Positions 11,256-64,000 of a DNA stretch of 64,000 nucleotides are shown here, one piece after another. Origin of the DNA: Monosiga brevicollis MX1 (lineage: Eukaryota; Opisthokonta; Choanoflagellata; Craspedida; Salpingoecidae); contig NW_001865040.1 of assembly GCF_000002865.3 (NCBI RefSeq), forward strand, positions 1,186,174-1,250,173. The letters run 5' to 3'. Numbering within the stretch: the first letter of the stretch is position 1; each line of letters starts with the position of its first letter. A program made the position numbers and the translations under genes. The notes beneath the pieces were generated by a model, which saw nothing but the letters and a program-made list of their open reading frames with translations, was not told the DNA's origin and did no database searches.

Positions 11256-12751
11256 TCATGGGTGCCTTGGTGCTTGCGCCAAGCTTCTTCTCTGTTCCTT
11301 TGCCCTAAGCTCAGGTTCATTGAGTAAAGTCTGGTCATCAGCTGCGAACTCATCGACACGTTCGTGCTTCCATAGCCTTGAAACAAATTGCGGTCACAGT
11401 CGCACCTGGGGTGCCTTTTTCCCACCATTCTTTGTGGTTGAGGCACGATAGAGACGGCTACTGACGGATACGCCTTTGAGAAGCTTGGCAGCGCGTGCAT
11501 TGCGACGGTCTTGCCACGCTTCAATTCCTTCGCCTCGTCTATGAGCATACCATCGCAAGTCAAACAGGTTGGATGGGGCCATGTGAGAGACGTTAAGGTA
11601 GTTGGTTGTCTGGACCAAGGCAAGCCATTTTTGCTGCTCAGTAGGCTTGCATTATTGTATCGCTTGCCACCCAGAGGAGATACTCTCTCTTCAAGACAGA
11701 AGGGCGGCTTACAGCTTGGCGTGCTGACGGTCGAACTTCTGTTGCAGTTGCGAGCCGGAGCTGGGAATATTTTCATCGTCTGTCAAGCCGGTTGATGATG
11801 GCACAGGTTAGTCTTTTGCTACGCAGCTTGATCCTGCGACCAAAGCCGGACAGTCAGGAAACGAGAGAAGCGTACGTGCATGGGTCTTGCTTGTGCCTGC
11901 CGTCTGCGCCACCGGCTTGCCTCGGCTGGAGTGTCGGGTGCGAGGGTTGGCAGCCAAGCGCGAGGCCAGTTCGGCAAAAATTTCCGAACGCAATGACTCG
12001 CTCTGAGGTGAATCAGTGCAAAGGGGAGGGTTACAGGACTTTTCGTGAGCTGGAGCCCGCTGAACCAGAGGCTCATTCTGAAGAGCGAAAACTTTTAAGA
12101 GGCAGCGTCGACAGACTGAGGTGTCTCGAGACAGCCTGGTTCCGCTCACTTTGCTGTGGCTCATGCTGGGTGACTGAGATGTCTTCGGAATGGTGGGCAT
12201 GACTGGGATCTGCATACATTTTGGACTGTCACACCATTTTCGTCGCGCTTCAGAGCCTGCAAGTATGTGATAGGGGAAGGTGAGGCAAGACAGTGCGCAT
12301 CCATTGTGCTGTCGTACGGCGCAATGCGGCAGTTGCTCAACGATGCTCATGCTCAAGCGCCAGGGGGGCAAGCTTACGGGGCGTGGCCAAGGGCCGACGA
12401 GGCGTGTGTGGCGTTGGAGTCTGAGGCTCTTGGGGTGACAGCCCCGGCGCGGCGGACATGGGAGCGTCAGCGGTCTCGAGCTCGCTATCTGTGTCGTCTG
12501 TCCCCTCATCTCGATCAGCTGGGATGGTGGCGACTGCGTCTGGAAGAGTTGACGATGCCCTGTCAAGCAGCTGGTTGATGATCTCACTCGACTACAACAG
12601 ACAGGCCTCTGTGAAGCAACGTTCGGATAGATCGCAAAGCGATTGACCGTGAAGAGACACAAACCTTTGCGTTGGCGCGGATACCCTCTTTCTTGGCCAG
12701 GGACTGAAGCTCACGCCGCGACAAAGCCTCCAACTGTGCACGCTCCATCAT
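11256..12751 (-). CDS. NUSAP1: NuSAP-like spindle protein with N-terminal SAP-like motif
   Basis: Exon 1 (12665-12751) encodes 'MMERAQLEALSRRELQSLAK' then 'KEGIRANAK'. This parallels vertebrate NuSAP1 'LDSLKYSDLQNLAKSLGLR', with the diagnostic L-Q-x-L-A-K-x-x-G-[IL]-R-A-N signature. NuSAP binds microtubules and chromatin during mitosis. Exon 2 (12378-12591, acceptor TGTTGTAG) continues 'SSEIINQLLDRASSTLPD' into an acidic then Pro/Thr-rich stretch. Later exons are Ser/Pro/Lys-rich ('FAELASRLAANPRTRHSS', 'LQQKFDRQHAKL', 'AWQDRRNARAAKLLKG'), as in NuSAP. A tentative last exon gives 'HERVDEFAADDQTLLNEPEL' and a TGA at 11258-11256. The homology call rests mostly on the N-terminus. A CHR/E2F-like composite lies 111-128 bp upstream of the ATG. 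Confidence 0.55.
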
Positions 12752-12861: not shown

Positions 12862-12879
12862 TTTGAATTTTCCCGCGAA
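12862..12879 (+). promoter_or_regulatory. CHR-E2F composite upstream of the NuSAP-like gene
   Basis: TTTGAA (12862-12867), TTTT, then CCCGCGAA (12872-12879). TTTGAA is the canonical CHR element, and TTTTCCCGCG matches the E2F consensus. The same 6+4+8 arrangement occurs twice between NDC80 and the kinesin-12 gene. The nearest start codons are 12751 (-, NuSAP-like) and 13145 (+). Confidence 0.6.
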
Positions 12880-58507: not shown

Positions 58508-60983
58508 CTACGCCTTCTGCTCCTCCACAAAAGCTTGCAGGGTGCGCAGAATGGCCTTGCTCTCCGCCACTACGCCGTCCACGCCACCCTCCAAGGTTTC
58601 AAGCTGCTCGTGAATCTCATTGGCAAAGGGAGTGAACATCTGGATCAGCCGGCGCACCGAGTTGGCAAAGGCTTTGCGCTCCTGGGCCTGTGCCACCTGA
58701 AGCTGCTGCTGCTTGGCCTCAAGATCGGCCTTACGCGCCAGCATATCCTGTAGGTCGCCGGCCAGCTGCATACGGCGTTTCTGGTTCTCGCTTTGCATGA
58801 TGGTCACGTGACTTTGCTGCTTCTTGTACTCGCGGCTGATGACCTCTTGCAGCTCGCCACACTGCTGTTCCAGTGCTTCCAGCTGCGTTTGCATCACGCT
58901 TAAGTCATCGCGCTTGGTGACAACAGCCTCCTCCAGCTGTTGGCAGCGGTCCTTGAGCTCCAGCTTGTGCAAATCACTGTCCTTGGTCTGACTTGTCAGC
59001 TTGTGCAACTGACCCTGCAACACAGGCAACACTTGTCGTTGCAACAGACCTACGACATGAAGACGGTGAATTAAGCGCCACAGGATGTGAGATCTCGCCG
59101 GGTTGTTGCCTAGCACCAAAGGTGAACAAGGCATGCACATCATCAATCCAACAGGTGGGAAACTGACGGTTGAGCTGTTCATGGGGTTGGTCCACGCTGC
59201 CGTTCACGGAGACGACCGCCTCCATGCCAAACTGTTGCAGCAAAACATTGGCTTCTGCTGTTTGCTCCTGCAAGCCATCGACGGTCTTGGAGATGTCAAT
59301 CTCGACTTTGCACAGGTCTTGCTCGAGCTGATCCTTGCGCTGCTCTGCCAAATCCAGGTCACGCTCCAGCTGACGCTGTTTGGCGTTGATGCGCTCCACG
59401 TCTGCAGTCGTCATCTCTTGCTGATCTCGCATCACCTGAAGTATATTTAGCACAAACGTGATGAGAATGAAACAACAGAGCCAAAAAAAAAAAAAAAAAA
59501 AAAAAAAAAGAGTAACAACAAACAAAAAACGCCAGACCAACACCAGCCTGATTGGCTCGATGCCGTTGGGCTGAGCCCGGCACGAAACTCATGGGGCCAA
59601 GCAAGCTGAGCCTTTCCCAACCTTGAGCTTGGCAATCTCGGCGTTCAGCGCCTCGAGCTCTTGCTCCTTTTCCGTGATGGCCTGCATGGTCTGAGCAGTC
59701 TTGAGCTGATAGCGCTCTTGGTGCTGCTTGAGCGTCTTGATGAGCTCCAAGAAGCGCGTACGGTCCTCCTGCAATGCCGAGCGCTTTGTCTCAATGGCCG
59801 ACAGGGCCGGGCACTCTGCCTCGAGCTTCTGTAGCTCCTCAATGCAACCCTGGTGTTTCTCCTCCAGGTGTGCGTGGGTATTGACGAGCTCCTCCATGCG
59901 ACCCGCAAACAGCAGTTCACACGAGGGCTTGTCGATGTGTCCGGACATGAAATCGGCATATGACTACACGGATGAGCCGCCGGGGCAGCCGGCCAGAGAT
60001 TTGAAGTCACCAACATGAGGACTGGTATGCGTACTATTACCATACCCTTGATTGAGCTGCAAGAAACACCACGCGCAACGCACCTGGATGCCGTGATCGA
60101 AGATGTCGGCTGAGAAGAAGAGATCTGAGTCCTGGGGGTCGAAGATGTTCTCGCTAATGCGGGTTAGCGTGATGATTTCGTCCTCCATATCAAGAAACTG
60201 CACAAGCATGGCGCAACGAACAGACGAAAATGGAATCAAAATGATGCTCGATGGCAACAAAACACACGAGTGCATGCCGACTGAACGCGGGGGGAAGCCG
60301 GCACGCTGTACGTTGACAGGTCGAGGTTCAGCCCCAACGCTCTGGCAAGATTGACATACCCGAGTAGCATCGACGAGCCACGTCAGCGCGCCCAGCAGCT
60401 TGGGCCAGTTGTGCGAGGAGCCCGACGCAAAGATGGTTGACTTTTTGATCGGGAAGGGGTAACCCAAATACTTCATTATCTCGGGGATCTCGTCTTCAGG
60501 CTTGTACTTGTCCCAGGGAAACATGGGGTCAAGCAGGCCATAGATGTGCTGAAACATTTTCACAAAGATCTTGTTGGAGGGAGCGGCCAGCATCTTGGCC
60601 GAGATCATGTCAGGATAGCCGGTCTCGCTGAGAAACACCACCAGGTCTCGGATGGCCTTCTTCAGGTATTGCTTGTCGGACCATTCTCGAGGGTCGCTGG
60701 TGCCTGTGGCGGAACCGTGGATGCTGGAGCGACGACCGCCGATGCTGCGACGACTGCTCATGGACGACGCGAGAGATCCGCGGCTAATAGACTGGCGCGA
60801 CGCATCCCACGCCGCTGACGAGGTTGGACGCGAGCTCAATCCCATGGACCGACGACTCACTCCCATGGATTGTCGGCTCACACCAACGCTCTGACGGTCC
60901 TTCTTAACCACTCGCCGAGCATCGCCAAACGACTGACGGCCGTGCAAGTTCTCCAAACCTCCGAGTGAGGCGCGAGACGTCAT
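58508..60983 (-). CDS. NDC80: Kinetochore protein NDC80/HEC1
   Basis: Outer-kinetochore subunit that binds microtubules through an N-terminal tail and a calponin-homology head. ATG at 60983. The Ser/Arg-rich tail ('SVGVSRQSMGVSRRSMGLSS') is basic, with repeated R-x-S sites, as expected for Aurora targets. The CH head has 'LVVFLSETGYPDMISAKML', 'PSNKIFVKMFQHIYGLLDP', 'EIPEIMKYLGYPFPIKKS' and 'SSHNWPKLLGALTWLVD', collinear with human 'LCEFLTENGYAHNVSMKSL' and 'PHTWPHIVAALVWLID'. The coiled coil follows from the 'SYADFMSG' exon (human 'CFMSG'), with 'DVERINAKQRQLERDLD' (human 'DIERINHERNELQ'). The last exon ends 'ESKAILRTLQAFVEEQKA', TAG at 58510-58508. Introns at about 60.1-60.36, 59.5, 59.05 kb. 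Confidence 0.93.
59481..59509. repeat. Poly-A tract in NDC80 intron
   Basis: About 29 A on the + strand (poly-T in the transcript), close to the 3' splice site of a coiled-coil exon. Confidence 0.85.
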
Positions 60984-61122
60984 GGTGACGGTGGCAGCCA
61001 GCGCACAACAGCCGCCCAACTCGTCACGATCGCTCCAAAACTCAAGCTTGGTGCAGCTGTGCGACAACGAAATAAAAAAAATGCTGGGCTGACGACACCT
61101 TTCGCCCTTTGCGAATAAGAAT

Positions 61123-61140
61123 TTCAAATTTTGGCGCCAA
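61123..61140 (+). promoter_or_regulatory. CHR-E2F composite, copy 1 (NDC80/kinesin-12)
   Basis: TTCAAA, TTTT, then GGCGCCAA. TTGGCGCCAA is a palindromic E2F-type core, and TTCAAA is CHR read on the other strand. Read on the - strand, toward NDC80, GGCGCC precedes TTTGAA, the order of animal CDE/CHR tandem elements. It is 140 bp from the NDC80 ATG. Confidence 0.6.
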
Positions 61141-61186
61141 TGAAATTCGTGACACCATTCAGGGGGTCAACCTATAGCTAAATTTT

Positions 61187-61204
61187 TTCGCGGCAATTTT
61201 CAAA
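61187..61204 (-). promoter_or_regulatory. CHR-E2F composite, copy 2 (NDC80/kinesin-12)
   Basis: On the - strand: TTTGAA, AATT, then GCCGCGAA. Same 6+4+8 layout as copy 1 and the NuSAP-side copy, opposite orientation to copy 1, 46 bp away. Confidence 0.55.
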
Positions 61205-61599
61205 CGACAATCATCCATCGTCTCAAGTGTGGTCTCTCTATCTCTCTCTCTCTCTCTTCCTCTCTCTTCCTCATTTTCTTTTCATCTTTCTTTTCTATAC
61301 TGTTCTCTCTCTTTTTCTCTCTCGTGACAAAATTTTCAGGAGACGGTTTTTTTTGGGGGGTGGGGAGTGTGCGTGTGTGTTTTTAGGGGGGATCGGGTGC
61401 CTGAAGACTTGGTTCCGGCTCCTGTCTGCCTTCCCTGCAACAGCAGTGGCTATCGCTGACAACGAGGGGTAGGCACCAGTGCTTCCATCCCCTGTAGCGC
61501 AGTCACATCTCTCCCACAGACTGACCTGACGCCTGTTGGTTCAATGTCCACGGCCTCGATGTTTAGAGTGTCAGGCGAAAGCACATTGTGATATACATC

Positions 61600-64000
61600 A
61601 TGGCCCCGCGACGCTCGACGGGAGGCGAACGGTGAGCCTTCGCGGTTGAGCTTCTTCCTGTCGCAAACCCGCCTAGTCATTGGCTGGCACGCTGACAAGC
61701 GCGGCTAGTCAGGCAGAAATCAGTCTTTCTCACGCATTCGCCGCCTCTGCTTGCGACCACCTCGGCTAGGGAGAACATCCTGGTCGCCGCTCGTGTTCGC
61801 CCAAACATCCATTCAGGCGTCAACGATGACGATGAACAGGAGTGTGTCACAGTCAATGGCAACCGCATCATTGTCAATGACCGCAACTTTGACTATGACC
61901 AAGTTTTAGACAACTCTAGCAGCCAGGTACGTGGACCTCAGTCCCAACGACTTGAATCGCCTTCCTGTATGCGCTCACCTTGGTATATGCCATGCTCTCT
62001 ACCTGAGTTCAGGCTGATGTTTTTGAGCGAATCGGGAAGCATGTCGTGATGGGCTGTCTCGATGGCTTCAACGGCACCATCTTTGCCTAGTATGAATCGC
62101 TCCCACCCCTGGCGCCTCAGCCACGACCCCCATGAAGCCATGCCAATTCACAAATTGTGCTTGCTCGGCCCCCACCTACAGTGGCCAAACGGGTAGCGGC
62201 AAGACTTTTACCATGCTGGGTAAGGCAAGAGTGGTACTGTACGCCATCTGCATCTCTTCTCTCCGGCAACCCTGAGTGGCTCACGCGCATCAAATTCACA
62301 AACTAGGTGCGCAAAGCACTCTCGGCAGCCTTGTGGAGAACATGCAGGGCGTCATTCCCCGGGCGTGTGACTACATTTTTGATCACTTGGTACGTGGAAA
62401 GAGCGTGAAAGAACCTCACGAGGGGTTTTCCCATTCAATCACAAATGCCACTTGCTTTGCTCTCACGCTTGGGCATACCCCCGCCGCGCTTCAGAATGAA
62501 AGCGGATCAAGCTTCAAGATCAAATGCTCCATGGCCGAAATTTACAACGAGGCCGTCTATGATCTACTCGATCCAGCGGCCAAGGCTAAACCTGTGCGCG
62601 AGGACAACGCCCGAGACATCGTGTTTGTTGAAGGACAAGAAGAGAAAATCATCGGCTCACCTCAAGAGGCCTTGGCCGTAAGTTGGTCAACGATAGTTCC
62701 AGAAGGCGCCCGTGTCAACATGCTGCTGGCGCCATTGAATGCACCCTCTGTGCTGGCACTCACTGCGCGAGAGTGCGCTCTGACGCTTCAATCCAAGTTG
62801 GTCGCCTTGTTTCCCTGACGTCCCGGTCTGCCCTCCTCGATGCTGTTATCCATAGGTTCTGGAGGAAGGCAATCGCAACCGCCGCGTGGCTGAGACATCC
62901 ATGAATCGTGAAAGCAGTCGCTCTCACGCTATTTTCACCCTGAACATCGAAGTTGTGGTAAGTTGTTAATTCTGCTCGGCCCAAGAACACGTTGGTGGAA
63001 CACTCACGCATACATACTCACATACCTGACCCACCTTGTGATTGCTTATCAACAGCAAGAGCACGAGGGTGGCATCAAGACAGTGCGAAAGTCCCGGCTA
63101 AATCTTGTTGACTTGGCCGGCTCGGAGCGCCAACGTGACACCCAAGCTGCAGGCGAGCGTCTCAAGGAAGCCAGTCAGATCAACAAGTCACTCTCAACTT
63201 TGGGCAATGTCATCAACAGCTTGACTCGCACATCAAGCAGTGGGCGCCATGTTCCTTATCGTGATTCAAAGCTTACCTTCTTGTTGCGCGATTCGCTGGG
63301 TGGCAATACCCGAACAGCCCTCATCGCCACAATCAACCCCTCCAGCAAGTGAGTATGCACATCCAAATTCACGCCCTTGGGGCGTGCTGATGACCTGCCT
63401 GCCATGCCCTTCAAAGCATGTGCTATGCACCAGTTTATCAGGCACATGTCAACTCATCAACCTGATCTGTCCTCCCCGATGGCCAGATCATTTGGCGAGA
63501 CCCTGTCCACACTTCAGTTCGCGCAACGCGCCAAGCTCATTCAAAATCGCACCAAGAAGAATGAGGGCTTCACTGGCAGCGTAGCCGAGCTGCAAGCTGA
63601 GATTAAGCGGCTCAAAACTGCCCTCGAAAAATTTGAACGTACGGTCATTACTACAAGCCGCTTTAACCCCCCATCACCTCCAAGACCTGTCTTTTGATAC
63701 CTTTCCCTCCCGCTTTTCATGCACACACAAAGTCATCTTTGATATCCATCATACTTGGAACCGAAGCCATGACTCACAGTGCTTGACGTGTTTTTTTTTT
63801 TCGGCTCCTCGCCACCTTGTGCTGGCCCGCGATCGCTAGAAGGTGATGGGATTGCTGTGATGTTGCCAGCGGGCGCCAACGAGCCTCTTGCTGTTGTGGC
63901 CGCCAATGCACTGGAAAACCATCAAGAAGCTGAGCGTGAGAAGGTGACTCTCACACGCCGCCTCGAGTCAGAGGCCAAGCAGCGAGAAGTGTTGGAGAAG
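61600..64000 (+). CDS. KIF15: Kinesin-12 family motor (KIF15-like), 3' truncated by window
   Basis: Plus-end spindle motor by family. Exon 1 (61600-61631) '[11 protein letters not shown]' splices to exon 2 (61770-61926), giving '[20 protein letters not shown]'. The P-loop is assembled across an intron: 'NGTIFAY' + '[13 protein letters not shown]' (TA|T codon split at about 62090/62182). Next: '[17 protein letters not shown]'; switch I '[13 protein letters not shown]'; switch II '[15 protein letters not shown]'; then '[18 protein letters not shown]' and '[19 protein letters not shown]'. The neck region '[17 protein letters not shown]', '[20 protein letters not shown]' is closest to KIF15 '[17 protein letters not shown]' and 'VSQLQAEVKRLKEQL', which separates it from kinesin-5. 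The final exon ('[20 protein letters not shown]') continues beyond the window. Confidence 0.85.

Follow-up and report, generated by a model that had tools for sequence, protein, structure and literature searches.

Three 18-bp sequences in a 64,000-nucleotide stretch of Monosiga brevicollis DNA (hereafter the window) are probably bipartite E2F-CHR (CDE/CHR-type) elements of a DREAM/MuvB-type mitotic regulon, of which the strict motif TTYRAA-N4-SSCGCSAA marks a part; we put the probability of this reading at roughly 78%. At 46 sites genome-wide, the CHR hexamer TTYRAA adjoins a GC-rich E2F/CDE core across the four-nucleotide spacer of CDE/CHR-type elements, the spacing and relative orientation of the two halves are fixed, the composites lie upstream of mitotic genes with a usual polarity, and proteins of the expected reader families are encoded in the genome. 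Most likely, E2F/DP and LIN54 read the element jointly as parts of a MuvB-type complex, and joint binding of these proteins at the sites as well as periodic expression of the genes would be expected. DREAM/MuvB complexes time animal cell-cycle genes, and the DNA code involved has been described mostly in animals; such a code at the kinetochore, checkpoint, spindle and condensin genes of a choanoflagellate provides a testable intermediate.

The composites in the window were defined by their sequences and by pattern matching, and all three 18-mers were found at the coordinates and on the strands given by the initial annotation. Composite A (61123-61140, + strand) consists of the CHR TTCAAA at 61123-61128, the spacer TTTT and the E2F core GGCGCCAA at 61133-61140, and in the direction of the NDC80 gene, whose ATG is 139 bp away, the order is E2F, CHR, NDC80. 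Composite B (61187-61204, - strand), with the CHR TTTGAA at 61204-61199, the spacer AATT and the E2F core GCCGCGAA at 61194-61187, is located 395 bp from the kinesin ATG and is oriented opposite to composite A, which gives the order E2F, CHR, kinesin. The two copies thereby point in opposite directions, each facing its own gene of a divergent pair, and the interval flanked by both genes measures 616 bp from the NDC80 ATG to the kinesin ATG, as previously stated. A CT-rich simple sequence is present at 61233-61323, in the stretch from composite B to the start of the kinesin gene. Composite C (12862-12879, + strand; CHR TTTGAA, spacer TTTT, E2F core CCCGCGAA) shows the order E2F, CHR, NuSAP-like gene, with 110 bases between the site and the ATG at 12751, which agrees with the claimed distance of 111 bp from that ATG to the start of the site. 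Dinucleotide shuffling of the window (n=100) gave an expected 0.02 sites, with 0/100 shuffles reaching three, and no further composite was found in the 64-kb window with one mismatch allowed.

The neighbouring genes were identified with varying precision. The NDC80/HEC1 gene (58511-60983, - strand, ATG at 60983) is a partial gene model whose 3′ limit is the last coding stretch seen, and its identity was confirmed by a Pfam Ndc80_HEC match with an E-value of 2.7e-35 (ORF 59979-61136). The kinesin gene (61600-64000, + strand) starts with the ATG at 61600 and continues past the window end; it had been called a kinesin-12, and the Pfam Kinesin match (E = 2.9e-38) confirms it at the level of a kinesin motor. 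In the genome-wide profile search, the exons of this kinesin correspond to C55:1248347-1249528. The 5′ part of the NuSAP-like gene (12340-12751, - strand) was recognized by eye from its translation, and no Pfam match was obtained for the pieces scanned.

To place these composites in a genomic context, the 39.47-Mb M. brevicollis assembly was scanned with the strict motif and with variants having spacers of N3 and N5 or a flipped E2F half, with the reversed patterns serving as the background control. The strict motif was found at 46 sites (25 on the + and 21 on the - strand; one per ~0.86 Mb) compared with nine for its reversed control, while the N3 and N5 variants yielded 10 and 9 sites, against 9 and 12 for their reversed controls, and the flipped variant 14 against 7. 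The excess of 46 sites over seven control counts with a mean of 10 had a conditional binomial P of 1.6e-13. Comparison of the counts at N4 with those of the N3, N5 and flipped variants indicates that both the spacing and the relative orientation are fixed, which is more than composition alone would give. Thus, the rigid CHR-E2F geometry proposed from the window was upheld by the genome-wide scan. A shorter form that requires the opposite end of the E2F consensus, TTYRAA-N-TTTSSCGC, was found at 21 sites compared with one for its reversed pattern; 12 of these overlap strict sites and nine are new, so the shorter form does not provide independent evidence.

These counts also bear on two simpler explanations. 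The window was chosen because three hits had been noticed in it, at a genomic density of only one site per ~0.86 Mb, so that base composition and selection of the window might together have produced a chance co-occurrence; the N4 excess, however, is independent of the window, and the genes neighbouring sites elsewhere again include mitotic ones. With the spacing, orientation and reversed-pattern controls all rejecting it, an origin by chance and composition is extremely improbable. It could also be that function resides solely in an extended E2F site, with TTYRAA an inconsequential AT-rich flank; in favour of this, the spacer starts with AA in 18 of 33 oriented sites, extending the E2F consensus to GCGSSAA. 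However, an AT-rich flank would also have raised the N3, N5 and, in part, the flipped counts, which stay near background (10, 9 and 14 versus 46), and this makes a solitary E2F site unlikely.

Genes were annotated for 33 of the 46 sites, comprising 30 sites read at 3 kb (20 of them also at 10 kb) and the three window sites; at three further sites, seen in 0.8-0.9-kb pieces, no gene was recognized by eye, and the remaining 10 fell outside the survey. The 33 sites are accounted for by 11 tool-supported cell-division genes, three genes recognized by eye, one MND1 site, five sites within open reading frames (L007, L011, L019, L022 and L027) and 13 sites adjoining genes with no recognized division link, with the gene classes assigned after the genes had been seen and several identifications derived from hand-joined exons. 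Tool-supported neighbours were those with an inferred ATG, chosen from the translations, at most 0.75 kb from the site. Six core mitotic genes adjoin the 33 sites, namely NDC80, PLK1, CENP-C, MAD2, TPX2 and SMC2, and one kinesin does so as well. PLK1 was identified by Pfam Pkinase and POLO_box matches, and its closest solved polo boxes are those of PLK1; CENP-C by CENP-C_C, with E-values of 7.2e-8 for the joined peptide and 0.027 for a single exon; MAD2 by a match of 1.2e-26 on joined exons, the single exons giving no Pfam match; TPX2 by Pfam; and SMC2 by a match of 1.4e-23. A cyclin is found beside site L045, for which a local Pfam scan placed Cyclin_C above and Cyclin_N below the cut-off, and a RACGAP1-like protein with C1 and RhoGAP domains, the latter under the curated cut-off, beside site L005. 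Further neighbours are a RhoGEF, with NET1/ARHGEF3 nearest, and a protein matching PF14976 (E = 2e-41 on the joined peptide), a family named YPEH2ZP in Pfam, which we take to be FAM72. This FAM72-type gene in a choanoflagellate is located at L050:5740-6352 (+ strand), and the strict composite lies 730 bp upstream of it in reversed polarity.

The neighbours recognized by eye are the NuSAP-like gene of the window, a Bora-like gene (L028) and a Greatwall/AGC-type kinase (L025). The Bora-like gene had no Pfam match, and a protein search returned only M. brevicollis's own unnamed protein; among proteins of solved structure, the Greatwall-like kinase fragment came closest to NDR/MRCK/ROCK kinases. 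A second GC core (TTGGCGCT, TTCGCGCA) lies immediately 3′ of the CHR in the promoters of the RACGAP1-like (L005) and Bora-like (L028) genes, which suggests that the CHR may have E2F-like halves on both sides. The meiotic gene MND1 flanks one side of another site. Sites adjoining genes without a recognized link (L003, L004, L006, L009, L010, L012, L017, L018, L021, L023, L024, L026 and L030) are expected in kind, since about 10 of the 46 sites would be background, and some of these 13 neighbours may nevertheless be real targets.

Although sites were assigned to genes by distance and not by direction, the order E2F, CHR, gene, in which the GC core is upstream of the CHR as in CDE/CHR elements, was observed for nine of the 11 tool-supported genes, the exceptions being CENP-C and FAM72; the count covers genes with an inferred start, which leaves out MND1. 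All three genes recognized by eye (NuSAP, Bora and the Greatwall-like kinase) displayed the usual order, and the distances between the site and the inferred ATG ranged from 42 to 730 bp for the 11 genes. Consistent with this polarity, the mean coding score on the CHR side of the 33 loci was 30.4 on the same strand versus 12.2 on the opposite strand. On the E2F side, a gene often leads away from the site (27.6 versus 12.7). The presence of genes on both sides indicates that many sites are located between divergent genes, and the coding profile alone therefore cannot choose the target.

To control locally for the gene classes, we took from the 20 ten-kb loci all reading frames that were 60 residues or longer and had a coding score of at least 10, and divided them into near frames, within 2 kb of a site (n=90), and far frames, at least 2.5 kb away (n=80), from which two frames of the PLK1 gene were dropped to leave 78. 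Near frames matched 31 Pfam families, and the 25 listed include polo box, TPX2, TPX2_importin, Mnd1, Cyclin_C and RhoGEF, as well as RMI1, where the site is inside the RMI1 frame; many others, such as ceramidase, mitochondrial carrier, FMO and acyl-CoA dehydrogenase, have no division link. Far frames (n=78) matched 29 families, and among the 25 listed none is specific to cell division; they comprise PEX11, Bax1-I, aconitase, HECT, DHHC and similar families, together with HEAT and Arm repeats, which are uninformative, and a Pif1 piece that is probably part of the PIF1 gene close to site L009.

The proposed association with mitotic genes thus stood in so far as many sites adjoin such genes and the far control families listed include no division-specific ones, and had to be narrowed in that the strict motif covers no more than a part of the mitotic programme. 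At least 131 exon-piece matches to kinesins were obtained, and no kinesin but that of the window has any of them within 5 kb of a strict site. The seven cyclin-box matches, which do not include the cyclin at L045, all lie away from strict sites. With one kinesin and 0/7 cyclin-box matches at strict sites, not all mitotic genes are marked, and the idea that the strict element is a feature of most mitotic kinesins or cyclins found no support in these coordinates. The weak kinesin exons at C51:1361594-1361716 (- strand) have a relaxed composite, TTTGAA-T-TTTGGCGC (C51:1362959-1362973), ~1.2 kb upstream, which makes this weak kinesin a possible second kinesin target.

We then asked which proteins could read the two halves. 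Genome profile searching identified two CXC (PF03638) matches at one locus, and the CXC pieces aligned to the human LIN54 DNA-binding domain (5fd3) with E-values of 1.9e-21 and 1.4e-13. In human LIN54, Tyr536 and Tyr610 are described as reading TTYRAA (PMC4974476), and the CHR-reading tyrosine, placed by alignment, is retained in each of the M. brevicollis CXC domains, while the human Asn609, a backbone contact, is replaced by Arg. Four E2F_TDP (PF02319) matches at three loci, one partial match to the LIN9 domain DIRP (PF06584) and one match to the pocket protein domain RB_A (PF01858) were also obtained, showing at the family level that the genome has genes for E2F/DP, LIN9 and a pocket protein. 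The LIN54 and E2F/DP genes, whose presence had been proposed as a check, were accordingly found, and LIN9 and the pocket protein likewise; E2F, DP and RB of M. brevicollis have already been published (PMC3224931). LIN52 (PF10044) gave no genome match in a search whose controls were equally silent. Two of the E2F_TDP matches lie ~0.4 kb apart on one strand at C55:1081603-1082312, and may represent a single, E2F7/8-like gene carrying a pair of DNA-binding domains, or else exons that encode neighbouring domains.

Given these proteins, the E2F/DP dimer would contact SSCGCSAA through the major groove, and the two CXC domains of LIN54 would contact TTYRAA through the minor groove, with both halves held by a MuvB-based complex that would be DREAM-like when joined by the pocket protein. 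Such a complex would keep mitotic genes off until G2/M, and Myb-MuvB would perhaps take over later in the cycle. E2F and LIN54 might instead sit side by side as separate factors, or the sites might serve a mainly activating Myb-MuvB complex rather than one DREAM repressor. The present evidence does not separate a repressor from an activator, and mammalian CHR sites are described as serving both DREAM and Myb-MuvB (PMC5716687, PMC5355254); yet spacing that is rigid to one base, with a different DNA-binding domain on either side, points to a fixed protein bridge, and both the pocket protein and LIN9 are encoded. We consider such separate or mainly activating use the less probable arrangement, albeit one that deserves consideration. 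Within the preferred reading, a composite read by E2F/DP and LIN54 in one complex, we tentatively propose a further step, for which the odds are rather against us: a single hard-wired E2F-CHR composite could switch a compact mitotic module in common, a module made up of kinetochore, checkpoint, spindle and condensin components, PLK1 and regulators of cytokinesis. This composite would combine invariant spacing and relative orientation with a nearly invariant direction, its register might be shifted by one base compared with the mammalian CDE/CHR, and a divergent mitotic pair such as NDC80/kinesin would have two back-to-back copies, one per gene.

Elements of this kind have been described in mammals, worm, fly and Tetrahymena, and the occurrence of the present one in M. 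brevicollis and concentration on mitotic genes appear to be unreported within the open-licence matches listed, among which no report of an E2F-CHR element in any choanoflagellate was found. Relative to the spacer, the GC core may be shifted by one base compared with the CDC25C, CDC2 and cyclin A sites; a printed copy of the four mammalian site strings was not found in the open-licence literature searched. The MKI67 site, described with a four-nucleotide spacer and an overlapping TTAGCGCC, does not settle the register question (PMC8629999). Mammalian CDEs are reported four nucleotides upstream of CHRs (PMC5716687), and a structural model at that spacing places LIN54 and E2F-DP on opposite DNA faces (PMC4974476). 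The DREAM-bound mammalian CDE/CHR and E2F/CLE tandem elements accordingly share with the M. brevicollis composites the E2F-like GC core, the four-nucleotide spacer and the CHR, with the CDE upstream of the CHR, as well as G2/M target genes including PLK1 (PMC5716687, PMC4974476, PMC10581385, PMC4747163). In contrast, the mammalian CDE is described as having low E2F affinity, whereas the M. brevicollis pattern demands a full E2F-like core (PMC5716687).

The E2F/DP-LIN-54 hybrid motifs of C. elegans and Drosophila (DRM/dREAM) likewise have adjacent halves, occur under LIN-54 peaks and have cell-division targets, and the C. elegans hybrid is reported to resemble the human one in orientation and spacing and to be related to the Drosophila motif (PMC3093354). 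Those motifs are defined by ChIP (PMC3093354), whereas the M. brevicollis element is known from sequence. Outside animals, the hybrid motif has been reported in one ciliate in the literature examined: in Tetrahymena, a lineage distant from animals, an E2F/DP-CHR hybrid motif occurs under the peaks of the LIN54 protein Anqa1, but the target terms given there are gene expression, chromatin, translation and metabolism, with mitosis not named among them (PMC8216455). Capsaspora, a unicellular holozoan, has a periodic cell-cycle transcriptome with a mitotic expression wave, while the words motif, promoter, LIN54 and DREAM are absent from the main text of that study (PMC7098662).

The suggestion that such a regulon existed before animals is a reasonable one, although the idea itself is not new in view of the Tetrahymena hybrid motif (PMC8216455). 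If true, a mitosis-specific DREAM code would predate animals, with the mitotic branch, beyond E2F control of S phase, already so wired in a choanoflagellate, and its geometry could be tested in a unicell. The specificity of the motif (46 sites versus ~10) also makes it a handle for discovery, as unnamed neighbours of strict sites become candidate mitotic factors. Efforts to identify the genes at L042, L024, L047 and L034 yielded no mitotic name. Unnamed gene starts near strict composites with the usual polarity were seen at L047:5094 (+), L042:5216 (+; an ORF start, not a checked ATG), L024:614 (-) and L046:5199 (+). These four genes are candidates for unknown mitotic proteins, and some of them appear by eye to be coiled-coil or disordered.
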